Part shown: positions 32,998 to 49,504 of the stretch, in pieces | Layout of the letters: every line of letters begins with the position of its first letter | Numbering within the stretch: position 1 is the stretch's first letter | Source of the DNA: Cryptobacterium curtum DSM 15641 | GTDB lineage: Bacteria > Actinomycetota > Coriobacteriia > Coriobacteriales > Eggerthellaceae | Length of the DNA stretch: 64,000 bases | Reading direction: 5' to 3' | Assembly (NCBI RefSeq): GCF_000023845.1 | Contig: NC_013170.1 | Location: 1,218,501-1,282,500, forward strand | Made by a program: the position numbers and the translations under genes | The notes under the pieces: generated by a model | Seen by the model: only the letters and a program-made list of their open reading frames with translations | Told to the model about the DNA's origin: nothing | The model's database searches: none

Positions 32998-35172
32998 CTA
33001 CATCAGCTTCGTTTCCTCTAGCTTGCGCCGCAGCATCTGGTTTGATTGCGCAATCGGCTTGCGAATAATCAAACCCAGCAGCAAGGAAAGCGCCACCAAA
33101 CTTGAAACCGCCAAAAGACCCGAGACATATTCCATTCCATAGATACCCGCCACACACGACTGCATCGCGCGCATGCCATGGACAAACGGCAGCCACGGAT
33201 AGATGTCCTGGAAAATGGTATCGGACATCTCTATGGGAAAGATGCCACCCGAACCAGCCACTTGCATAACAAGCAAGATGACCGAAATCGCCTTACCGAC
33301 ATTACCAAACGAAACCACTAACGTATAGATGAAGAAGCAGAACATCTGCCCAATCAGCACGCCAGCAAGCACAAAGAGAACCGGGTGCACGCACTGTATT
33401 TTCAAGAAGAATAGATCTCCTAGGCACACCACTAAACTCTGTCCCAAACCCAAAAGCGAAAAGATGCCAAATCGCCCAAAGAACTCCTCGCGCGGCTTCA
33501 GCTTAGGATATTGAGCGCGGCGGCTTTCGTTTAGGTGCCCTTCAAGCATAACGACCAAAATAACGGCCCCGACCCACAAGGTGAGCATTGTGTAGAACGA
33601 TGACATTGATGACCCGTTGTTTTCCACGGGAAATATGCCCTGGCGCTCCATGGAAATCGGGGAAGCTAAGTAATCGGCAAGCGACGTCGTATCGCCATCA
33701 ATAATGGCTTTGATTTTGTCAACGTCGCCCGATGCAAGGGCGTCGGAGAGTTTTTCTTTTACCTCTTTCAGATAATCAGCCGATCCGTCAAGTTCCTTGG
33801 CTGCTTGATCAAGCTGCTCTTGGGCAGAGGCTAGTCGTGCTGAAAGCGAATCGGTTGCATCAGAAAGAGATGCCATGGTTGCATCCAAGTCCGACGATAT
33901 CGTTTGCGCGCTACCCGATACCTGCGCAAGCGACTGCTTCAACTGGCCAACTGACGACGTGAGATCGCCATTGTAGTCGGTTTTCGCTGCGTTAATTCCC
34001 TGCTTTGCCTGTGCTATCAGATCGGCCACCTGTTGACGGCGCGTGGAAGAATCAGACACGCCTGAATCAATTGAATCGGCTGTGTCCGCAAGATTCTGCG
34101 CAAGATCCCCTTGGATTCTCGAAGCTTCTCGTATCTGAGTGATCACCGCATCAAACGCATGACCAGTGTTCACCGATTCAAGTGCAGTAGCAAGCGAATC
34201 GTATGACTGCTTGATCACAAGAACCCTGTTGGCAAGCGTACGCAACTGCGCCGATGCAGTCTGTGAAGAATCGCCAATGGCATCAAAAGCCTGATTAGCC
34301 TGGCCGCCCAGAGAATCAAAACTCTCTGCACTCTTGGAGAGTGCCTGACTCACGGCATCAACTGACCCCTCTAAGGATGACGCCGTTGACGAAAGCGAAT
34401 CTTCGGATGACGAAATAGCGTTCTGCATTCGTGTTGACGAATCTGAAGCGGAGTCCATCACCGATGCCGACGAGTCAACAAGCGAACGCGTTGCACCCAT
34501 GACCCGAGAGAAAGATCGGATACGGTCAGCCGCATCGTGAATGTCAGACGAAGCAGTATCGATGCTATTCCCCATGCGTTCAATATAAGAAGCCAGCTGA
34601 TCACTCTGACTGAAATCGACAAGGTCAGATGACAACGAAAGCGCCACTTCACTGACCGTGCTTGTAAACTGCTCGCGAATACTTTCTTGAATGACCCCTG
34701 CACCGGCATCAGTAATACGTGGTGCAATAGGATTTTCTTTTTCGTTGGTGTAGTAAATGATGCTCGAATGTTCAACGTTGGGAGAAAACAGCGACATAAG
34801 ATCTGCCGAAAACGACGAGGGTATAACCAGTGCCGCATAGTAGCGACCCGACCGTACCCCTTCCATGGCGGTGTCGTTATCGACAAATTCCCAGCTAAAA
34901 CTATCATTTGCCCGCAACGACGAAACAACGGAATCGCCCGTGTTTACCCGAAGAGGTAAAAAATCGCCCTTGTAGCCTTCGTCGTCGTTGACCACAGCAA
35001 CCTTGAGCCCTTGCGTATTGTTATACGGATCCCAGCTTGCCGCCGTATTGAGCCAGGCATACATAACGGGAAGCAGAATAAGACCAACTAAAATGAGGGT
35101 AGAAATAGGGCTGTGCAGACCAAGACGCAAATCATCGACAAACATGCGGAACACATTTCTCATCGAAATCAC
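32998..35172 (-). CDS. YhgE/Pip-family membrane protein (second of pair)
   Basis: An N-terminal membrane segment is followed by LPVMYAWLNTAASWDPYNNT and VAVVNDDEGYKG, the YhgE/Pip N-terminal signature. A long extracytoplasmic helical region (about 170-500) is rich in Ser, Ala and Asp. Then come FPVENNGSSMSSFY and five or six C-terminal membrane segments as in ABC-2-type permeases. The start is GTG 35172, overlapping the stop of the partner as GTGA. Relatives serve as phage-infection proteins or in type VII secretion; the function here is unknown. Confidence 0.87.
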   Translation of the reverse strand: MISMRNVFRMFVDDLRLGLHSPISTLILVGLILLPVMYAWLNTAASWDPYNNTQGLKVAVVNDDEGYKGDFLPLRVNTGDSVVSSLRANDSFSWEFVDNDTAMEGVRSGRYYAALVIPSSFSADLMSLFSPNVEHSSIIYYTNEKENPIAPRITDAGAGVIQESIREQFTSTVSEVALSLSSDLVDFSQSDQLASYIERMGNSIDTASSDIHDAADRIRSFSRVMGATRSLVDSSASVMDSASDSSTRMQNAISSSEDSLSSTASSLEGSVDAVSQALSKSAESFDSLGGQANQAFDAIGDSSQTASAQLRTLANRVLVIKQSYDSLATALESVNTGHAFDAVITQIREASRIQGDLAQNLADTADSIDSGVSDSSTRRQQVADLIAQAKQGINAAKTDYNGDLTSSVGQLKQSLAQVSGSAQTISSDLDATMASLSDATDSLSARLASAQEQLDQAAKELDGSADYLKEVKEKLSDALASGDVDKIKAIIDGDTTSLADYLASPISMERQGIFPVENNGSSMSSFYTMLTLWVGAVILVVMLEGHLNESRRAQYPKLKPREEFFGRFGIFSLLGLGQSLVVCLGDLFFLKIQCVHPVLFVLAGVLIGQMFCFFIYTLVVSFGNVGKAISVILLVMQVAGSGGIFPIEMSDTIFQDIYPWLPFVHGMRAMQSCVAGIYGMEYVSGLLAVSSLVALSLLLGLIIRKPIAQSNQMLRRKLEETKLM

Positions 35173-38045
35173 CGCTTTTCCTTATCAATAGACGCGTCCG
35201 AAGCATCGTCTGACGTTTTCGAAGCACCATCTGAAGTGCTGTCCGAAGGAGTCTCTGCAGTATCGCTTGAAATGCCGTTCGGCACCTTATGGAAAGTTTC
35301 ATCCGAAGCGTCACTCGCAGCACCATCTAATACTGCATCTGAAGCACCATTTAACGCTTTACTTGGAATATCACTCGAAACATCATTCAAGACCTCGCCC
35401 GAGGAGAGCTCTTCTGTAGCGGCATTCTTCTGAGGTACTTCACGCAAACGGGAAAGTACCGCACGCACATTTTCGGCGTGGTTGGCAGAAAAATCCTTGT
35501 GGCGCAGTGGAGTGTGACCCATCACATCAGCCATCAAATCTTCTCCACTGTGCGCAACCATGCGCACCTGGTTATTCAAGTAATCATGGAAGTACTCGAT
35601 AAGGACCAGCGCCCATCCCAGCAAAACAACCAGCGTGACAAAGCCCACAATCATGAGCACCTTGCCGTTCGGCCCCAGCGAAAATTGGCACATGATAACC
35701 AGAGCAACAAGTGGAAGGACGATTATTGAAATACGACTGATCTGTGCAATAGATGGATAGCGACGGTTGAAGCGCGTCGCACGACCAAGCAAAACGCTTC
35801 GGTATTCGTCGTTGTCCAAAAGAGCACGCACCACGTTGCGCACACGATAACGCGGTTCGCGCAGGCCTTGATCGTCATTGACCATATAGGTCGTTTCGCG
35901 TAATCGTTTGTCAAACAACACGTTCAAATTAAGAACATACGGACGGACAAATAAGCCGATGAGTAGCGAAACCGCCGCGATAAGCAAAAGCACCACTATG
36001 TTGGCGGCATATGCACCGCCGTACATGCCCCCAATTGCCTCGCGCATGGCAGAAATACCATAGGTGAAGGGTAAGAGTGGATGTACCTGTTGGAAAAAGG
36101 ACGGCATCATTTCGATAGGGTACATACCCGACGAACCAGGAATCTGCATGATAAGCAACAGCACAGCAAGCGCCTTGCCAATGTGTTTCAGGGTAATCCC
36201 TAACATGAAAACCACGTTCACAAAGGCAAAACTTGTAACGAGCCCCGCAATAACAAACGATATCGGGTCGACACAGCCAATGCCCAATGCCACATCACCG
36301 ATACAGATAATCGCCGCCTGAACTAAGGAAACTAAAACGAACAGCAGCCAGCGAGCCATATAAGCCTGCACAGCTGTCATCGATTCAAACCCTTTGCGAT
36401 CGACTTCCATCTTAAGAATAGCTATCAACATAAAGCAGCCGACCCAAATAGCCAGATTGGTATAGAACGGGGCAACGGCTGCACCATAATGCTCCACCGG
36501 ATAGAGCACTTCGGTATCAAGGGTAACCGGCGACGACATGAACTCGCCAATGCTTGTTACGTCAAGACCAAGCACCACAGAAAGTTGATCGGCTTCGAGC
36601 GCTGAAGCGATGGCGCGGATATCATCAACAGTGTCGTCAACGTGCTTTTGTACCGCACCAAGAGAACTTTCCGTGTTAGAAAGAGACGCTTGAACCTGGC
36701 TAAAGACACCCTGCGCCTGTGAAAGCAACGAAGAAATTTCTTCCACCTGCGGGCCTAGTCCAGAAACTGCCCCAGAGAGACCGCCCATCGACAGCACGAG
36801 CGAATCAAGCGAACCGCCGATACGCGACGCACTTGCAGCAAGAGCTGTTCCCGTGACCATGATGGATTGAGCACCCGTCTGCACTGTCGTGTTCATAGCA
36901 TTCGAAAGATTCTGCGCAGCAAGAGTAGCACGACCGAGGCTCGTACTGACATTTGAGAGGTTATTGACATGCTGCCTGAGCGTATCGTTATGGGATTGCA
37001 AACGCGCAATCGTATTGAGCGCGGTAGTCTTCGCGCTGCCCGCCGGCAGTGCCGCAGCGGCATCTTGCAACTGACTAATAATCTGGTCGTTCTGCGCGAT
37101 AACCCCTTGAAGACGGGTAAGCACACTATCCACGTCAGCCTTCGCCACCATAATGCGTCCAACAGCATCGTTAACCTGGCTATTTACCTGCGAAGAAGTA
37201 CTCCCTATAAGCGCACCACTCTGGGTAAGGGTCCCTGCGAGCGATGAACTGAAGCCATCCGATGAAGTGCGTACCTGAGAAAGAACGCGCGCTGCATCAT
37301 CGATAGACGTTGATGCCTGCGGCACGGCAGTTTCAAGCACATCGAGCGTTTCTTGAGCATTGTCAACGACATGCGACCACGAGTCGATAGACTGCGAAAC
37401 GTCCTGTAGCGTATCGATGATTTGAGCCACCTGTTCATTTGCCCCAGTGACCGTTTGAGAAAGACGCCCATCAGCTGTATCAATCTGGCTTTCAATGTCG
37501 CCAGCTCGGTCTTTCAACAAACCGATAAGCGCTTCGGATACCGCTTTTGAAAAGGCTTCCTCTACCTGACGCTCGATTGCCGTTGATCCAGCATCGGTTA
37601 CTTTTACAGCGGTTGAACTGTACTTTTCATTGACGTAGTAATCGATATGTGGCTCATGTCGGTCGCCCGACAGTGCGCTGGTAAAGTCAGCAGAAAGCGA
37701 CGAGGGGATCACAAAGGCAGCGTAATAGCGTCCTGACTTAACTCCGTCTATCGCTTCACCTTTTGAAACAAATTCCCAGCTAAACTGACTGTTTTGTGAT
37801 AACTGATCAACTATTTGACCGCCGACGTCGACCGATCCCATCCCTTCGACCGTTGTCGGAACGTCTTCGTTAGCGACGGCAATATGCAGTCCATTGGTAT
37901 GTTCGTAAGGGTCCCAGTTTGCTTCAATGCAATACCATGCATACAATGCCGGCAGAACCGACATTGCCACAATAACCACCAGGGCAAACGGATTTTTTAT
38001 TAGACGCACTATGTCACGCTGAAAAATGCGCAGCACCGTACCCAC
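35169..38045 (-). CDS. YhgE/Pip-family membrane protein (first of pair, long)
   Basis: A paralogue of the next gene. It shows LPALYAWYCIEANWDPYEHT, a helical external domain of about 350 residues, YPVEHYGAAVAPFY and a C-terminal six-segment membrane domain, then a cytoplasmic extension. The last about 85 residues are low-complexity (Ser, Asp, Ala, Thr), coded by degenerate 15-base repeats related to GAAGCACCATCTGAA on the plus strand. At 958 residues it is longer than usual. The start is GTG 38045 after AAAGGG. The two overlapping genes probably form a heteromeric complex. Confidence 0.87.
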   Translation of the reverse strand: MGTVLRIFQRDIVRLIKNPFALVVIVAMSVLPALYAWYCIEANWDPYEHTNGLHIAVANEDVPTTVEGMGSVDVGGQIVDQLSQNSQFSWEFVSKGEAIDGVKSGRYYAAFVIPSSLSADFTSALSGDRHEPHIDYYVNEKYSSTAVKVTDAGSTAIERQVEEAFSKAVSEALIGLLKDRAGDIESQIDTADGRLSQTVTGANEQVAQIIDTLQDVSQSIDSWSHVVDNAQETLDVLETAVPQASTSIDDAARVLSQVRTSSDGFSSSLAGTLTQSGALIGSTSSQVNSQVNDAVGRIMVAKADVDSVLTRLQGVIAQNDQIISQLQDAAAALPAGSAKTTALNTIARLQSHNDTLRQHVNNLSNVSTSLGRATLAAQNLSNAMNTTVQTGAQSIMVTGTALAASASRIGGSLDSLVLSMGGLSGAVSGLGPQVEEISSLLSQAQGVFSQVQASLSNTESSLGAVQKHVDDTVDDIRAIASALEADQLSVVLGLDVTSIGEFMSSPVTLDTEVLYPVEHYGAAVAPFYTNLAIWVGCFMLIAILKMEVDRKGFESMTAVQAYMARWLLFVLVSLVQAAIICIGDVALGIGCVDPISFVIAGLVTSFAFVNVVFMLGITLKHIGKALAVLLLIMQIPGSSGMYPIEMMPSFFQQVHPLLPFTYGISAMREAIGGMYGGAYAANIVVLLLIAAVSLLIGLFVRPYVLNLNVLFDKRLRETTYMVNDDQGLREPRYRVRNVVRALLDNDEYRSVLLGRATRFNRRYPSIAQISRISIIVLPLVALVIMCQFSLGPNGKVLMIVGFVTLVVLLGWALVLIEYFHDYLNNQVRMVAHSGEDLMADVMGHTPLRHKDFSANHAENVRAVLSRLREVPQKNAATEELSSGEVLNDVSSDIPSKALNGASDAVLDGAASDASDETFHKVPNGISSDTAETPSDSTSDGASKTSDDASDASIDKEKR

Positions 38046-38206: not shown

Positions 38207-39226
38207 TTATCCTCGATTAGTAGCAAGATGGGGTAAAACCGCATTACTTTTCAGGGGCAGATTCCCAGCAGATTCCCGTCTGAAAACGAGATATCGATTG
38301 GTCTTGTTATCAAGCCCATCAGCAGTAAAGTTTGCGATTAAGCGCCCTTCGTTTGCAACGGCATCAACAAGCATGCACGCTTCTTCATTGGAAAAATGAT
38401 GGCAGTAGCGCCATACATCGTGCTGATCTTGCCACCCCAAAAGAAAGTCGCCTTCTTCAAGCGAGGATGGATCGACTCCACGGTGCACAAGAGCCTTCTG
38501 GGCAGCGGGCCAGCATGATCGGACTTTACGAGCCAGACGCGCATCTTCCATGAAACGCCATAGCGATACCGCCACATAACCGCCCGGCTCAGCAGCCTGT
38601 ATAAGCGCTCGCAGAAAAGCAATCCGATTTTCCAATGCTGGAATATGATGCATAAACCCGAATGAAACAACCAAACCGCTCAAAGGGATGGCGCCAAACA
38701 GCGCTTGCTCTGGCGCCTGCTCTAGCGACGGCTCGCCCCCGCGGTGTTGGTTATCAGATAGTACCTGATCGTGAGTATATCTCGTACAGGGCTGCTGCTG
38801 GGACACCTGCTTTGCAGAAATCTGCTTCTGTAAGTCTGCTTCGCGAAGAGCCAAAAGTGCTGCCATCAGATCACACTTGTGAAACACAAGGGAAGCAACA
38901 CGACGATCCACTTGAGGAAGCAAACTGTCACAATTGTCGAACGCATGAAACTCAAAACAGGCATGCGGGAATCGATCCTGTAAAAACGACTCAAACCGCA
39001 AATTGCCACACGCAGCATCAAGCACGATAGTCTGATATGCAGGGTCGCCTACCGAAGAAGGACAATCGGCTTCTGAGGTGGCAGACCAGGCTCCTTCTTG
39101 CAATATATCGGTCAGTGTTATCCATCCGTGCCAAGGAGCCTGACGCGTTGCCGAAAAGGAATCGGCCACCGTACGATAAAACTCACTATTCAGCTGAGCG
39201 AGTGTCCGAGCTGTCTGCTGATCCAT
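38207..39226 (-). CDS. Trm9/ALKBH8-like tRNA wobble-uridine methyltransferase (predicted)
   Basis: A class I SAM methyltransferase. Its N-terminal FYRTVADSFSATRQAPW closely follows the Trm9/ALKBH8 hallmark (F-Y-x(5)-F-S-x-T-R-x-x-P-W). Next are the SAM motif LDAACGNLRF, FGFMHHIP, the post-motif GGYVAVSLWRF and a C-terminal WRYCHHFSNEE, like the R-Y-Y-H region of Trm9. In eukaryotes Trm9 methylates the carboxymethyl group that Elp3 places on uridine 34. Here an Elp3 gene is divergent next door. About 50 residues (near 145-195) are a Gln/Ser-rich insert. ATG 39226 has GGGAGGAGG upstream; 39271 would add 15 residues. A generic methyltransferase is the alternative. Confidence 0.72.
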   Translation of the reverse strand: MDQQTARTLAQLNSEFYRTVADSFSATRQAPWHGWITLTDILQEGAWSATSEADCPSSVGDPAYQTIVLDAACGNLRFESFLQDRFPHACFEFHAFDNCDSLLPQVDRRVASLVFHKCDLMAALLALREADLQKQISAKQVSQQQPCTRYTHDQVLSDNQHRGGEPSLEQAPEQALFGAIPLSGLVVSFGFMHHIPALENRIAFLRALIQAAEPGGYVAVSLWRFMEDARLARKVRSCWPAAQKALVHRGVDPSSLEEGDFLLGWQDQHDVWRYCHHFSNEEACMLVDAVANEGRLIANFTADGLDNKTNRYLVFRRESAGNLPLKSNAVLPHLATNRG

Positions 39227-39544
39227 CGAAGACGCACCTCCTCCCTTTTTGCACGGCGATAACACCAACACCAGTTGCTCAAACGCGATCCTATCATGCT
39301 TGAGCGCAGCTGCACATGCTTAGTACGCTCTTACGTGGCCATTATCTTTGCATATGTCTCCGTATGCCGCAGGATTCTGCTGCTTCGTCATACTTGGAGG
39401 GCAACCGCACAGACGTTGACACACAGCACTCAACTTGTTGCTGTTCAGTCTGTCACTTGTTCATTCTGCCGCTCGTCCATTTAGCAACTCCCCACCACGC
39501 GGTGTGATGAAAATCACCGCGTAATAGGCTGTCCCGCAGCGAGC
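39227..39544. other. Divergent intergenic region, methyltransferase/elp3
   Basis: About 318 bases between two divergent starts. It holds a perfect hairpin, ACGCGGTG (39497-39504) with CACCGCGT (39515-39522), close to the elp3 start. No gene was seen. It should carry promoters for both genes, which would allow joint control. Confidence 0.5.
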
Positions 39545-41563
39545 ATGTTAGAATTTCTCCCTATGGAAAAGCCGCTCACATCCCCTGGTACCGATACATC
39601 TCCTGTCACAGAGACATCCCCTGCTGTAGATATGCTATCCAGCACAGATACGCCATGCGTTACCGATACATCACCTGGTGTAGATGCGTCAACTGTTATC
39701 AATGCATCACCCACAAACGAAAAACCCACTATCGAGGGGCTTATCACAGATATTATCCAAGCACTGAAAAGCTCTCGTGAACTTGATGCGCGAAAACTGG
39801 AATCTCTGATCGCACGCTATAATCGCGCATGGCATAGCCCAGAGCGCCACTTTGCAAAACGACAGTTGCTACCGGCCTATCAGCGCATGAAGCGCGAGCA
39901 CGAAGATCTCTGGCGCACCTGGCATATCAGCGAACAAGATGAGGCTTATCTTATTGGTATTTTACAGATGAAACCCCGCCGCAGCGCATCAGGTGTGGCC
40001 ACCATCACTGTTATTACTAAGCCACATGCCTGTGCGAGCGCGTGTCTCTACTGTCCCAACGATGTACGCATGCCAAAAAGTTACCTCTTCAAAGAGCCTG
40101 CCTGCCAACGTGCCGAACGTAACTTCTTTGACCCATACCTGCAGGTTGCAAGTCGCCTTGAAGCGCTGCACGAGATGGGTCATGCAACCGACAAGATTGA
40201 GCTGATTGTTTTAGGGGGCACCTGGAGCGATTATCCACGCAGCTATAGAACCTGGTATGCTCGTGAACTGTTCCGCGCTCTCAACGACAGCCCCACCGAG
40301 CGTCAAGAGTGCTGCAATACGCGACGCACTGCCTATAAGAAATCTGCTATCGGTTGCGAAGCTGCGGAACTTGCACAGCAGTGCGAACCCGTCCAAGCTC
40401 TTGTTAACGCTGGACAGATTACCTATAACGAAGCAGTCGGTTGTCTGTTTGGACCGCAATCTTCTTGGGGCACTACCGCAAGCTGGCAACAGACTTGCCA
40501 AGAAGACCTCTTCGCTGAACATATCCGCAACGAAACGGCAGATCACCGCTGTGTCGGATTAGTAGTAGAAACACGTCCCGATGCCATCAGCGCCGAAAGT
40601 TTACACGCTTTACGGGAAATCGGCTGCACAAAAGTACAGATCGGCGTCCAAAGTACCCGCGACGAAATTCTCGCCGCAAACGATCGCGGCATTACCACAG
40701 CCACCATCAAGCAGGCTTTTCGCCTTTTGAGAGTGTTTGGATTCAAAATCCATGCTCACTTTATGGTAAATCTCTTGGGTTCAACACCCGCCGACGACAA
40801 GCGCGACTATGCCTGCTTCGCCGATACACCCGCTTTTCGCCCTGACGAAGTAAAACTCTACCCCTGCGCCCTCATTGAAGGGACTGGTCTTATGGCGCAT
40901 TGGGAAAAAGGGACATGGCGCCCCTATTCTGAAGATGAGCTTGTCGACGTACTCACTGCAGATGTGCTGGCTACCCCTGCTTACACGCGCCTTTCCCGTA
41001 TGATCAGAGATATATCAACCCAGGATATTGTTGCGGGCAATAAAAAACCCAACTTGCGTCAAATGGTAGAAGAACGCCTACGCACCGACGGTTATCACGA
41101 AGCTATCCGCGAGATCCGTTTCCGCGAAATCAATCGCGAAACCGTTGACATAAATAAACTTACGCTAAAAGAAATCGTCTACCAAACCGAGGTATCCGAA
41201 GAACATTTCTTACAGTGGGTTGACCCCACTGACCGTATCGCTGGCTTTTTACGCCTGTCACTTCCCTATAAAAGCTATATCACTGCACACGCTGGTGAAA
41301 TCCCTATATACGCCGGTGAAGCCATGATTCGCGAAGTGCATGTATATGGCGTGGCAGCGCACTTACATCACACCGATGCGGGCGTGCAGCATCTGGGACT
41401 CGGCCGCCAACTGGTCGAACAAGCATGTATTATTGCCGCAAAAGCAGGTTTTACTAAGTTGAATGTTATCAGTGCTATTGGCACGCGCGAATACTATCGA
41501 CGCCTTAGTTTTTATGACAATGGCCTCTATCAGCAGCGCAATTTACTTGAACCAACAAAATAA
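39545..41563 (+). CDS. elp3: Elp3-type radical-SAM/GNAT tRNA uridine-34 modification enzyme
   Basis: Predicted to add a carboxymethyl-type group to wobble uridine. The radical-SAM domain has the cluster cysteines in HACASACLYC (near residue 163), then KSYL..EPA and the Elp3 hallmarks LVVETRPDAIS, CTKVQIGVQS and HAHFMVNLLGSTP. The C-terminal GNAT domain (about 560-670) shows REVHVYG, QHLGLGRQLV and YYRRLSFYDNG. Residues 7-60 are low-complexity (Thr, Ser, Pro, Asp) with repeats like TDTSP and have no counterpart in known Elp3. Residues about 245-310 hold another insert. Start ATG 39545 or 39563; neither has a strong ribosome site. Confidence 0.92.
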   Translation: MLEFLPMEKPLTSPGTDTSPVTETSPAVDMLSSTDTPCVTDTSPGVDASTVINASPTNEKPTIEGLITDIIQALKSSRELDARKLESLIARYNRAWHSPERHFAKRQLLPAYQRMKREHEDLWRTWHISEQDEAYLIGILQMKPRRSASGVATITVITKPHACASACLYCPNDVRMPKSYLFKEPACQRAERNFFDPYLQVASRLEALHEMGHATDKIELIVLGGTWSDYPRSYRTWYARELFRALNDSPTERQECCNTRRTAYKKSAIGCEAAELAQQCEPVQALVNAGQITYNEAVGCLFGPQSSWGTTASWQQTCQEDLFAEHIRNETADHRCVGLVVETRPDAISAESLHALREIGCTKVQIGVQSTRDEILAANDRGITTATIKQAFRLLRVFGFKIHAHFMVNLLGSTPADDKRDYACFADTPAFRPDEVKLYPCALIEGTGLMAHWEKGTWRPYSEDELVDVLTADVLATPAYTRLSRMIRDISTQDIVAGNKKPNLRQMVEERLRTDGYHEAIREIRFREINRETVDINKLTLKEIVYQTEVSEEHFLQWVDPTDRIAGFLRLSLPYKSYITAHAGEIPIYAGEAMIREVHVYGVAAHLHHTDAGVQHLGLGRQLVEQACIIAAKAGFTKLNVISAIGTREYYRRLSFYDNGLYQQRNLLEPTK

Positions 41564-42787: not shown

Positions 42788-43138
42788 TTAAATAGCGCTT
42801 AAGCGCTCTTCGGAAGTCACCACAGGTGCAGATGCTTGCCGTAAGAGGCGCTTCTTCATTGTCCATGTTAGTAAAAACGACAAATTAACAATAACAAACA
42901 CGCTACCGCAGTTGTGTACCAACGCCCCTGTTACGGGGTCAAGCACTGCCGTAATAGCCAATATAATGGCAACAAAATTGAGAAGCATTGAAAAGGTCAG
43001 ATTTGCTTTGATAACACGCATCATGTGACGTGAAAGCGCCGTGAGGTGAACAAGGCCATCAATACGATCCTCCATGATTGCAATATCAGCCTGAACAGAT
43101 AGCTCATTGATATCTTGCGCTATTTGATGCTTCAACAA
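42788..43138 (-). pseudogene. C-terminal remnant of a heavy-metal P-type ATPase
   Basis: The 116 residues match only the end of a P1B ATPase: ADIAIMEDRIDGLVHLTALS (after the GDGIND region), MRVIKANLTFSMLLNFVAII, then ALVHNCGSVFVIVNLSFLLTW. The DKTGT, CPx and TGE motifs are missing, and the upstream 60 bases before mtnN cannot hold them. The frame is intact, so a short two-helix membrane protein could still be made. A decayed pump is the simplest reading. Confidence 0.75.
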
Positions 43139-46792: not shown

Positions 46793-49393
46793 TTAGTACT
46801 GAGCGAAACGCTCGTGACGTTGACGAACGAGGTCTTCGGCCGACACGTTGCGCAAAGCAGCAAGGCTGCGCGTTAAGAAAGCGCGCAAATTATCAGCCGC
46901 CTGCTCAGGATTCTCGTGAGCTGGGCCACTTCCCTCTGAAACTACTTCATCAGCCACGTGCATTTCGTACACCTGATTAGCATTCATGCGCATAACTTCA
47001 GCTGCTTCAGGCGCTCGCGAGCGGTCTTTCCACAGAATGGAAGCAAACCCTTCAGGCGAAAGTACCGAATACACGGCGTGCTCTTGCATTCCCACCTTAT
47101 TAGCTACTGCCAGAGCAAGTGCACCACCCGATCCACCTTCACCGCAAAGCACCGATACAACCGGAACGCGCAGGCCAGCCATAGCTACAAGGTTATCCGC
47201 GATAGCATTACCCTGACCGCGTTCTTCTGAATCGGCCCCACAAAATGCCCCTTGCGTATCCACAAGACACACGATGGGCCGATTGAACTTTTCAGCTTGA
47301 CGCATCAGCCGCAAACTCTTGCGATATCCTTCTGGCTGCGGGCAACCAAAATTGCGCCGAATACGCTCTTTCAGGTCGGCGCCCTTTTCTTGGGCAATCA
47401 CGGTAACCGCTTGATTACCAAGCCAGCCCACCCCAGCGATGATGGCACCATCGTCAGCAAATGAACGGTCGCCATGCAATTCGATAAAGCCGTCGAATAT
47501 CTGGTTAATATAATAGCTTGAACAGGGACGATGCACATTACGAGCCAGCTGTACACTCTGCCACGCATTTCCTGAACCTGAGCTAAGCGCATCATTTGCT
47601 GCTGGCTTTGCCTCTGCAACATCTGCCTGATGAGAACTTTCGCTTGCTGCAGCATCTGAGCTGATGCTCTCGGCCTCATCAACAGTTGACTGCATGGCTA
47701 ACGAAGAACCGTCTTCAGTTTCATATGATCCTTGTTCGAGCGTTTGTCGCAAGGTACGAACAGGATCGGTATGCGCCTGAACAACCTGTTTGACCATACC
47801 AATAAGCGACGAAAGCGCCCCCTCTTCATCCGGTTGAGCGTCGGTGAGAGGCAAGCGGCCGTACGTCACATGGTTGTAGGTATTGTGCCCCGAAGTAAGC
47901 GCACGGCAAACAGCTTGGTAGTTAACAATCGTTTCTGTACTGCCTTCACGCACTGGACGCGATTGTGTTGCAAGATGCACCGCAAGCAAATGAGCAAGAG
48001 TCGCACGCAGTTCATCGCGTGCAATAATGGCATCAACCAATCCATGTTCTAGGGCAAATTCAGCTGTTTGAAACCCTTCGGGAAGCTCTTGGCGAATGGT
48101 GTCGCGAATAACACGCTTACCAGCAAACCCCAACAACGCACGTGGCTCGATCAAGATAATATCGGCCTGCGTAGCAAATGAAGCCGTTACTCCCCCAGTG
48201 GTCGGATCGGTGACCACCGAAATATAAGGCAAGCCGGCCTGTGCATGACGCTCAACAGCACATGACACCTTTGCCATCTGCATAAGCGAGATAAGTCCTT
48301 CTTGCATACGAGCGCCACCCGAAGCGGTAAAAACAACCACCGGCAGCCCTGCTTCAGTTGCACGATCAAAGAGACGGGCAACTTTTTCACCAACCACCGA
48401 GCCCATCGAGCCCATGAAGAACCCGGCCTCCATAACACCAATGGCTAAAGAAATCCCTGCAATAGCACCACGGCCAGTACGCACTGCTTCCTGAAGACCG
48501 GTCTTTTCTCGCTGTGTTGTTAACTTCTCTTCGTAACCGGGAAAATCAAGCGGATCTGTCTCCGGCAAGCAGGCATCCCATTCGATAAAAGTGCCCATAT
48601 CAAGCAGGTCGTTAATACGCTCGTCAGACGACATACGAAAATATCCGCCACAAGCCGGACAGGTGTAATGACGCTTTGCCACGCCTTTTTTATCGAACGT
48701 CAGACCACAGTGTCGACACGTGACCCATTCGTCTGCTTCTGAAAGCTGTCGGGTGGTACTACAGCGCTGCCACCCCAAAAGAGGATGCTCAGAATCAATA
48801 GCTCTATAAACCGCAATGCCCCTGTTTTGTGCGCGAGCAAGAAAGGAATCGACTGATGAAAGCGCACTTGATACTCCATCAAGCAAAATAACCTGCACTG
48901 AAGCCTCTTCAGCGGCCGCAAGCACCGCATGCGCGTTTGAAAACAATGCATCGCCATAATGTTCGCCCAAACGCACCGTCTGACCAGGAATGCGAGAAAA
49001 TGGAACGGGTTTACGATCGTCAGTAAACGGTGTTACCGGCGTCATGCCGGCTTCACAAACAGCAGTTGCCAGCGTGCGTAGATTCTTCCCTTGCGACATA
49101 ACGAGTGCGCGGACAAGCGCAGTCCTGTCGTCATGAGGTCGCGCGGACGAAGGAACGGCCGTATATTCTTCGAGCGCTGCCGCACTTGTTGCATTCGGTG
49201 CAGCAGAGCTGTCTGTTCCCGAAAGAACCTTCTGCAGTGCTTCTTCAGCGATGCGCTCAAGTCGATAGGAAACGGCACTCGTTGTATCTGTTGAAGTGGT
49301 AGTTTCATCTGCTATCTGATCAGATGATGTCGCTTGAATCCCTTTGGCATCGCGTGTTTCATCGCTGCCGTATGTGTAATATTCCTTCTCCAC
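46793..49393 (-). CDS. accDA: Fused acetyl-CoA carboxylase carboxyltransferase (AccD-AccA) with BC-N-like domain
   Basis: The carboxyltransferase that moves CO2 from biotin to acetyl-CoA. AccD part: zinc ribbon CRHCGLTF...CPACGGYF (about 226-250) and GSVVGEK, FTASGGARMQEG. A Ser/Ala/Glu-rich linker (about 565-615) leads to the AccA part: YINQIFDGFIELHGDRSF, GSGGALALAVANKVGM. An extra region at about 93-198 (VRALVMSQGKN, VRLGEHYGDALFSN, AAEEASVQVILLDGV) resembles the first subdomain of biotin carboxylase without its ATP-grasp part. The GTG at 49393 has AGAAAGG upstream; ATG 49462 is possible. It is last in the fab operon. accB and accC are not in the window. Confidence 0.92.
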   Translation of the reverse strand: MEKEYYTYGSDETRDAKGIQATSSDQIADETTTSTDTTSAVSYRLERIAEEALQKVLSGTDSSAAPNATSAAALEEYTAVPSSARPHDDRTALVRALVMSQGKNLRTLATAVCEAGMTPVTPFTDDRKPVPFSRIPGQTVRLGEHYGDALFSNAHAVLAAAEEASVQVILLDGVSSALSSVDSFLARAQNRGIAVYRAIDSEHPLLGWQRCSTTRQLSEADEWVTCRHCGLTFDKKGVAKRHYTCPACGGYFRMSSDERINDLLDMGTFIEWDACLPETDPLDFPGYEEKLTTQREKTGLQEAVRTGRGAIAGISLAIGVMEAGFFMGSMGSVVGEKVARLFDRATEAGLPVVVFTASGGARMQEGLISLMQMAKVSCAVERHAQAGLPYISVVTDPTTGGVTASFATQADIILIEPRALLGFAGKRVIRDTIRQELPEGFQTAEFALEHGLVDAIIARDELRATLAHLLAVHLATQSRPVREGSTETIVNYQAVCRALTSGHNTYNHVTYGRLPLTDAQPDEEGALSSLIGMVKQVVQAHTDPVRTLRQTLEQGSYETEDGSSLAMQSTVDEAESISSDAAASESSHQADVAEAKPAANDALSSGSGNAWQSVQLARNVHRPCSSYYINQIFDGFIELHGDRSFADDGAIIAGVGWLGNQAVTVIAQEKGADLKERIRRNFGCPQPEGYRKSLRLMRQAEKFNRPIVCLVDTQGAFCGADSEERGQGNAIADNLVAMAGLRVPVVSVLCGEGGSGGALALAVANKVGMQEHAVYSVLSPEGFASILWKDRSRAPEAAEVMRMNANQVYEMHVADEVVSEGSGPAHENPEQAADNLRAFLTRSLAALRNVSAEDLVRQRHERFAQY

Positions 49394-49504
49394 GACAATG
49401 CCGCCTTTCTGAGGTCCTGTTAAGGCCTTTCGTGAACCTTTATCAGCCGCGCGCACCCGCATCTACCCAGGCTGGGCTACTGAATTGGACTGCCAAAACC
49501 GAAG

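Follow-up and report, generated by a model that had tools for sequence, protein, structure and literature searches.

A stand-alone Elp3 and an adjoining methyltransferase of Cryptobacterium curtum probably form a tRNA wobble-uridine pathway that replaces MnmE/MnmG. Judged from the sequences, Elp3 would make cm5U34, and the methyltransferase would turn cm5U34 into the ester mcm5U34, or into mcm5s2U34 where MnmA acts too; no Trm112 is recognisable. In eukaryotes, Elp3 makes cm5U34, and Trm9 with Trm112 methylates cm5U34 to mcm5U. The conversion by Elp3 is established for the archaeal and eukaryotic enzymes, and the characterised Trm9 enzymes require Trm112. The pair described here is thus a putative bacterial, Trm112-less variant of the pathway known from eukaryotes and archaea. 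A sequence-only reading had proposed that Elp3 and a Trm9-like methyltransferase may make an mcm5U-type ester, and this proposal is largely supported by the kinship of the methyltransferase to Trm9, its pairing with Elp3, and the absence of MnmE and MnmG.

Divergent genes for Elp3 and a Trm9-like methyltransferase

The two genes lie back to back in the window (the whole 64,000-nucleotide stretch of DNA that was analysed), with the following features.

38207..39226, minus strand: Trm9-like class I SAM methyltransferase, 339 residues, start corrected to ATG 39226
38207-39271, minus strand: mechanically called open reading frame of the methyltransferase, beginning at GTG 39271
39236..39245, minus strand: Shine-Dalgarno-like sequence GGGAGGAGGT, 9 bases upstream of ATG 39226
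39131..39181, minus strand: N-terminal hallmark F16-Y-x5-F-S-A-T-R-Q-A-P-W32, from the methyltransferase alignment
38990..39019, minus strand: SAM-binding motif I DAACGNLRFE; D, G, and N are invariant, and R is K in Trm9
38639..38662, minus strand: active-site stretch FGFMHHIP; HH corresponds to the region of yeast Trm9 H115 (PMC5372719)
38393..38410, minus strand: lid motif RYCHHF, equivalent to RYYHLY of Trm9, with R241 and H retained and Y243 replaced by Cys (PMC5372719)
38297..38299, minus strand: N310 near the methyltransferase C-terminus, an invariant alignment column
39227..39544, no strand: intergenic region, 318 bases separating the two divergent starts
39545..41563, plus strand: Elp3 (radical SAM and GNAT), tRNA uridine-34 carboxymethylation enzyme, 672 residues, full-length
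40031..40054, plus strand: [4Fe-4S] motif C163-x3-C167-x2-C170, present in all homologues covering the region
40286..40531, plus strand: insert in Elp3, about 80 residues long and specific to the lineage; the second lineage has 3-21 residues here
41387..41407, plus strand: GNAT-domain acetyl-CoA loop QHLGLGR, from the Elp3 alignment

The methyltransferase likely starts at ATG 39226 rather than at GTG 39271, because GGGAGGAGGT precedes the ATG and aligned homologues begin at the same residue as its product. The motifs F-Y-x5-F-S-x-T-R-x-x-P-W and W-R-Y-C-H-H-F that had been read in the divergent methyltransferase are present exactly, the second as W272-R-Y-C-H-H-F278 toward the C-terminus in the corrected numbering, and the motifs of this enzyme are near-invariant among 30 homologues. 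R28 and W32 are invariant in both lineages and are also found in Trm9; from the TRxxPW motif, we infer that R28 corresponds to yeast Trm9 R29. N310 is proposed to be the equivalent of Trm9 N271. The intergenic region presumably contains both promoters.

The assignment of a radical-SAM/GNAT Elp3 to 39545-41563 was borne out by a match to NCBIfam TIGR01211 above the cut-off (406.4 bits; cut-off 350). Radical_SAM and Radical_SAM_C also match, and the Elp3 entries of the PDB are matched at E 1e-80. C163, C167, and C170, QHxGLG, and YY are conserved in an alignment of 78 sequences. Family membership and these motifs imply that the window Elp3 makes cm5U34.

Kinship of the methyltransferase to Trm9

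Searched alone, the window methyltransferase gave a weak, generic Pfam match (Methyltransf_23 at 20 bits, below cut-off), no curated family above cut-off in Pfam or NCBIfam, and no phmmer match in the PDB (177,635 sequences). Its kinship to Trm9 is visible only through profiles and intermediate sequences. The best PDB match of profile A1 was Yarrowia Trm9 (5CM2; 1.3e-5), and that of profile A2 was Trm9 at 1.8e-12, with the next entry at 2.4e-10. An intermediate orthologue of 242 residues matched 5CM2 over residues 26-218 (9.8e-18); the two runners-up shown for it aligned over 42-141 and 35-144, which is the SAM core only. For residues 146-242 of this orthologue alone, Trm9 was the sole PDB match at E<1 (E 0.016; next 1.2). 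Among alignable columns, 15 of the 17 invariant ones are identical in Trm9, compared to 47 of the 160 remaining columns (Fisher test, 3e-6). Short methyltransferase orthologues from outside the order are also paired with Elp3, have 5CM2 as their best PDB match, and share about 21-27% identity with the Coriobacteriia methyltransferases; these short orthologues bridge the Coriobacteriia enzyme to eukaryotic Trm9. The closest solved relative by sequence, reached by two profiles and an intermediate homologue, is therefore Trm9 and not a non-tRNA family, in agreement with the original assignment.

Structure comparison gave a less specific picture. The two methyltransferase models (pLDDT 83 and 89) have the class I SAM methyltransferase fold that Trm9 shares, but Trm9 was not the top match: 5CM2 ranked 5 and 2 in Foldseek for the two models and reached a VIA Z of 20.5 at 30% identity, compared to a Z of 23.4 for METTL6. 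METTL6, NTMT1, and small-molecule methyltransferases score alike or higher, so that the fold does not single out Trm9. The class I fold is so widespread that we do not regard the fold comparison as decisive.

Residue numbers and roles for yeast Trm9 were taken from a review, according to which five residues matter for cm5U34 by mutation, namely R29, H115, R241, Y243, and N271; R29, H115, and R241 are proposed to orient cm5U34, and Y243 is important for tRNA binding and kcat (PMC5372719). Three of these five are conserved, a fourth probably is, and the fifth (Y243) is Cys in the Coriobacteriia proteins, as it is in most bacterial members. R28, H118, and R192 of A2 (L153 numbering), the equivalents of R29, H115, and R241, are invariant and identical in 5CM2. 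An invariant N stands at the position expected for N271, beyond the part of 5CM2 that is covered by the alignment.

The replacement of Y243, the missing Trm112, and the far divergence of the Coriobacteriia enzymes from Trm9 would also fit a methyltransferase that acts in the Elp3 pathway on another target, such as a different Elp3-derived U34 group (e.g., towards ncm5U) or another position of the same tRNAs, or that is an essential Elp3 partner and not a methyl-ester synthase; the link to Elp3 is strong whichever chemistry applies. We consider this unlikely, given that the equivalents of R29, H115, and R241 are invariant in both lineages, that the Trm9-specific C-terminal lid is retained, and that the archaeal Elp3-Trm9 pair is clustered too (PMC2584109). 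That the methyltransferase would make mcm5U34 is concluded from its homology, from the conservation of its active-site residues, and from the strictness with which it is paired with Elp3.

Conservation and co-occurrence of the pair

The neighbourhood proved to be conserved, as the initial reading had supposed, and presence and absence of the two genes coincide. Among the best 80 loci of a scan of genome contigs, nearly all of them from Coriobacteriia, Elp3 is divergent from and adjoins the methyltransferase at 72, and each of the other window neighbours occurs at 2 at most. A sample of 150 genomes of the order contained 104 with both genes, 5 with Elp3 only, 4 with the methyltransferase only, and 37 with neither. 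Elp3 and the methyltransferase occur in identical sets of 18 of 246 Actinomycetota genomes, and in another class in identical sets of 4 of 36. Together with the near-invariant motifs, this conservation of neighbourhood and co-occurrence implies that the pairing is not due to chance. In genomes G072 and G147, Elp3 is present and the methyltransferase was not found. G357 and G387 carry the two genes on separate contigs, where each gene lies at a contig end and reads inward; a divergent pair broken up in assembly could give this arrangement.

The generic fold and the lack of a curated family above cut-off are compatible with a methyltransferase of unrelated function (small-molecule or protein methylation) that adjoins Elp3 through inherited synteny only. 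However, conservation extends to none of the other window neighbours, the divergent pair recurs in distant Actinomycetota, both genes are jointly absent in many genera and in parts of g11 and g43, and the C-terminal part matches Trm9 only (E<1), all of which make this explanation very unlikely.

Other wobble-uridine genes

MnmE and MnmG were above cut-off in 0 of the 150 genomes of the order. The C. curtum genome, searched with a 5,000-base stretch read as N, yielded no MnmE or MnmG (only other GTPases and oxidoreductases), no relative of CmoA or CmoB, and no PF03966 or YcaR match indicative of Trm112. TIGR00450 matches were rejected as MnmE, being GTPase domains only, and MnmG was not found in the four other pair-bearing genomes tested. 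The ester had been suggested to occur "instead of or beside" the MnmE/MnmG product; these absences favour the first alternative and speak against the second. The Trm112-like gene that had been expected did not materialise in this genome or in the relatives searched. Candidates within the order were rejected, as their matches lie inside frames of 198-854 residues, and the G217 candidate, a frame of 79 residues matched over 19 positions, is a weak fragment. By contrast to these genes, MnmA is present in the C. curtum genome, as are the U34 tRNAs Lys(UUU), Glu(UUC), Gln(UUG), Arg(UCU), and Gly(UCC).

The U34 methyl ester known from bacteria is made by CmoM, another class I enzyme whose substrate is a U34 carboxylate and whose fold matches (Z 16.7). 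That the methyltransferase is of the CmoM type, with cmo5U34 and not cm5U34 as its substrate, is highly improbable, since the genome lacks CmoA and CmoB, the makers of cmo5U, and encodes no full-length relative of E. coli CmoM, and since profile A2 gives CmoM 0.0013 compared to 1.8e-12 for Trm9.

Proposed pathway

In the pathway that we favour, the stand-alone Elp3 would use SAM radical chemistry and acetyl-CoA to carboxymethylate U34 at C5, and the divergently encoded methyltransferase would use SAM to esterify the carboxylate of the resulting cm5U34. MnmA would then 2-thiolate tRNA-Lys(UUU), Glu(UUC), and Gln(UUG) to mcm5s2U34, and the Arg(UCU) and Gly(UCC) tRNAs would retain mcm5U34; this assignment follows from the presence of MnmA and these tRNAs in the genome. 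The Elp3-methyltransferase route would stand in for the missing MnmE/MnmG. Because they have the Elp3 and Trm9-like pair and not the usual bacterial wobble enzymes, other pair-bearing Actinomycetota probably make mcm5U as well. It seems reasonably likely that at least two Actinomycetota lineages make mcm5U and mcm5s2U by a stand-alone Elp3 and a Trm112-independent Trm9 that replace MnmE/MnmG. Collinsella, Slackia, and Cryptobacterium are cultivable gut and oral species.

Bacterial mcm5U is not listed in reviews: one holds mcm5U-type modification to be confined to eukaryotes (PMC6382703), another places it in eukaryotes and archaea (PMC7694415), and a third states that a search for homologues of the Trm112-dependent methyltransferases in bacteria found none (PMC5372719). 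If true, a bacterial Elp3-Trm9 pair would remove this domain boundary, show how some Actinomycetota lacking MnmE/MnmG modify U34, and provide a Trm9 that works without Trm112.

Comparison with known systems

Catalytic Elp3 is common to the C. curtum system and to eukaryotic Elongator with Trm9/ALKBH8-Trm112. To our knowledge, prokaryotes have no Elongator subunits besides Elp3, and Elp1, 2, 4, 5, and 6 are not expected in C. curtum. The methyltransferase shares TRxxPW, DxxCGN, HH, D-x4-W, RYxH, and the R29/H115/R241 equivalents with eukaryotic Trm9, from which the C. curtum system differs in the Cys at Y243, in the lack of a detected Trm112, and in its side-by-side, divergent genes. Thiolation of the Lys, Glu, and Gln tRNAs is likewise expected, by MnmA in place of Ctu1/Ctu2-Urm1.

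The routes through MnmE-MnmG-MnmC and CmoA/CmoB/CmoM, by which other bacteria modify C5 of U34, serve the same decoding need, and CmoM likewise makes a methyl ester; MnmE, MnmG, CmoA, and CmoB were not found in C. curtum. A stand-alone Elp3 with a Trm9 homologue, as here, occurs in the archaea Haloferax volcanii and Sulfolobus solfataricus, and the two genes are clustered in S. solfataricus (PMC2584109). Archaeal Trm9 works with Trm112, as stated in a passage of PMC7694415 that cites van Tran 2018, whereas C. curtum has bacterial MnmA and no detectable Trm112. The Elp3 of Dehalococcoides mccartyi, whose structure is solved, is a bacterial stand-alone enzyme that the window Elp3 matches at 1.7e-80; it is described as a rare bacterial example in a passage of PMC6367351 that mentions no Trm9 partner. 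Compared to D. mccartyi Elp3, the Coriobacteriia Elp3 has an insert of 80-110 residues.

Elp3 and a divergent methyltransferase are retained as a pair

The genome of Cryptobacterium curtum (Eggerthellaceae, Actinomycetota) is a single contig of 1,617,804 bases, of which the window covers 1,218,501-1,282,500. Two window genes lie on opposite strands:

38207-39271, minus strand: methyltransferase ORF
39545-41563, plus strand: Elp3, 672 aa (TIGR01211, 406 bits against a curated cut-off of 350)

The TIGR01211 score bears out the Elp3 claimed in the sequence-only reading, and solved Elp3 proteins (PDB) match it at 1e-80. The methyltransferase start was set to ATG 39226 (339 aa) because of a strong Shine-Dalgarno-like sequence and the homologue alignment; the motifs quoted earlier for this protein match the sequence exactly. 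The radical SAM half of Coriobacteriia Elp3 carries an insert of 80-110 residues (40286-40531), compared to 3-21 residues in Elp3s of a second lineage, Actinomycetota outside the Coriobacteriales.

A methyltransferase profile was run on named genomes, and its best 80 loci come almost entirely from Coriobacteriia. Elp3 is divergent from the methyltransferase in 72 of them (68 clean, 4 with slight overlap of the 5' alignments), so that the pairing first seen in the window is kept; spacing is mostly a few hundred bases, with a maximum of about 1.9 kb. One remaining locus has a convergent Elp3, four end early at a contig edge, and Elp3 was not found in three having some upstream sequence. As a control, further window genes were looked for in the same loci. 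Among the 55 loci with full flanks, Elp3 is present in 53, compared to 2 each for CorA, an MtnN-like gene, and a LuxS-like gene, and 0 for the window membrane proteins. Thus, the pair alone has been retained.

Several features were noted in passing. Two big adjoining ORFs at 32998-38045, of 724 and 958 aa, resemble the YhgE/Pip type by eye: their membrane-anchored ends look alike, and each has a long coiled middle part. They are not conserved beside the methyltransferase elsewhere. A lone 116-residue ORF (42788-43138) matches the C-terminal end only of heavy-metal P-type ATPases, as a remnant or stand-alone piece, and by eye a single 889-residue ORF (46793-49462) resembles a fusion of the beta and alpha carboxyltransferase subunits of acetyl-CoA carboxylase. 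One locus (L049), whose contig is assigned to a Propionibacteriaceae MAG, holds a typical Coriobacteriia pair, through either misbinning or gene transfer.

Co-occurrence of the two genes

Real Elp3 was defined by E below 1e-40, and counts in 150 genomes of the order were tallied by hand: the two genes occur together in 104, Elp3 without the methyltransferase in 5, the methyltransferase without Elp3 in 4, and both are missing from 37. The corresponding counts in the 112 good-quality genomes are 78, 3, 0, and 31. In one Elp3-only exception (G007), Elp3 is truncated by the contig end; in G072 and G147 the methyltransferase was not detectable beside Elp3. Completeness is 71-89% in the four genomes that have the methyltransferase alone. 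Both genes are jointly absent from single genomes of two genera that otherwise carry them (G075 of g11, G033 of g43).

In a phylum sample of 246 genomes, 18 carry real Elp3, and strong methyltransferase matches (E below 1e-12) are present in each of these and in no others. Of the 18, 14 belong to the same order and hence are not independent; four lie outside (families f33 and f42). Fisher values for co-occurrence ignore relatedness and are indicative only. Outside the order, the two genes diverge in G217, G181, and G205 (spacing 1.6 kb in G205), and in the class of G217 both genes occur in the same 4 of 36 genomes. An ATPase-like gene (L155:1932-3263) lies between the divergent genes of G205, an insertion relative to G181 of the same genus.

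The methyltransferase resembles Trm9

As a lone query, the window methyltransferase gave little information. Profile A1, built from 30 members of the order, found Yarrowia Trm9 (5CM2) as the best of 177,635 PDB sequences (1.3e-5). The second-lineage orthologues, short (about 240 aa) and without the Coriobacteriia inserts, form a bridge to Trm9. One matches 5CM2 at 9.8e-18 across residues 26-218 of 242, taking in D-V-F-I-P-W and the lid R-Y-C-H, while the two listed runners-up (2.2e-15 and 2.5e-15) cover the SAM core only (residues 42-141 and 35-144). Residues 146-242 searched alone matched 5CM2 at E 0.016, with no other match below E 1. The combined profile A2 ranked Trm9 at 1.8e-12, the next match at 2.4e-10, and CmoM at 0.0013.

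The two bacterial lineages share 18 invariant columns; of the 17 that align to 5CM2, 15 carry the same residue in it, compared to 47 of the 160 remaining columns (p 3e-6). Yeast Trm9 mutants R29A, H115A, R241A, Y243A, and N271A are deprived of tRNA affinity and activity (reviewed in PMC5372719). The bacterial proteins keep R29, H115, and R241 without exception, and invariant N310 is probably the N271 equivalent; in contrast to yeast Trm9, the Y243 position is Cys in Coriobacteriia.

The predicted folds are ordinary class I (pLDDT 83 and 89). In the fold comparison, 5CM2 aligned across 176 of 184 residues (Z 20.5) with the top identity, 30%, but METTL6 exceeds it in Z, and therefore fold alone leaves the Trm9 assignment undecided. 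We file the protein as a Trm9-like enzyme, predicted to work like Trm9, and not as a Trm9-Trm112 holoenzyme.

Alternative U34 enzymes are missing

The genome was searched directly with E. coli proteins, and the controls DnaA, AtpA, AspS, and ArgS were all recovered; 5,000 bases (1,027,501-1,032,500) read N, where a small gene could escape. MnmA is encoded (44% identity, nearly full length). MnmG, CmoA, CmoB, and YcaR were not found, and matches to MnmE were confined to GTPase domains, its helical domain not being found. The sequence-only reading had allowed for an ester instead of or beside the MnmE/MnmG product; both genes are missing from this genome, neither passed its cut-off in any of the 150 order genomes, and MnmG was not found in the outside genomes G217, G181, G205, and G357. 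The Trm112-like partner it considered did not materialize: PF03966 was not found in the genome, and its matches in relatives are either embedded in long reading frames or weak and fragmentary. Separately, 37 of the 150 order genomes lack Elp3, the methyltransferase, MnmE, and MnmG, and therefore no known C5-U34 modification route was found there.

A proposed mcm5U34 pathway

An Elp3-Trm9 pairing was predicted in archaea in 2008 and is clustered in S. solfataricus (PMC2584109). For bacteria, no genes similar to Trm112-dependent methyltransferases were found (PMC5372719, 2017), mcm5U-type modification was held exclusive to eukaryotes (PMC6382703, 2019), and cm5U/mcm5U were placed in archaea and eukaryotes, with no assignment of mcm5s2U to bacteria (PMC7694415, 2020). 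Dehalococcoides Elp3 is described as a rare bacterial example (PMC6367351). We found no later reports of bacterial Trm9 or mcm5U in the open-licence literature, and because the search was limited to such papers we make no priority claim.

The gene pair is real and conserved, and the present analysis establishes that both genes are there, how they relate to known families, that they are linked, and that the alternative enzymes are missing. The pair very probably represents the mcm5U34 pathway of eukaryotes and archaea in a bacterial form that lacks Trm112. Elp3 alone would form cm5U34, the Trm9-like enzyme would esterify it to mcm5U34, and MnmA would thiolate the Lys, Glu, and Gln tRNAs to mcm5s2U34. 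In eukaryotic complexes, Trm112 binds via a beta-zipper with strand 3 (PMC5372719). Models of the Coriobacteriia methyltransferases show an insert, predicted with low confidence, that follows the third strand and would lie near that binding place. That the insert substitutes for Trm112 is speculation, because short orthologues without the insert are also without a clear Trm112.

Of the 49 tRNAs encoded in the genome, those that carry U34 include Lys(UUU), Glu(UUC), Gln(UUG), Arg(UCU), Gly(UCC), and Leu(UAA). A tRNA for selenocysteine, with anticodon UCA, lies outside the window at genome positions 1300452-1300549; mammalian tRNA-Sec is an mcm5U substrate.
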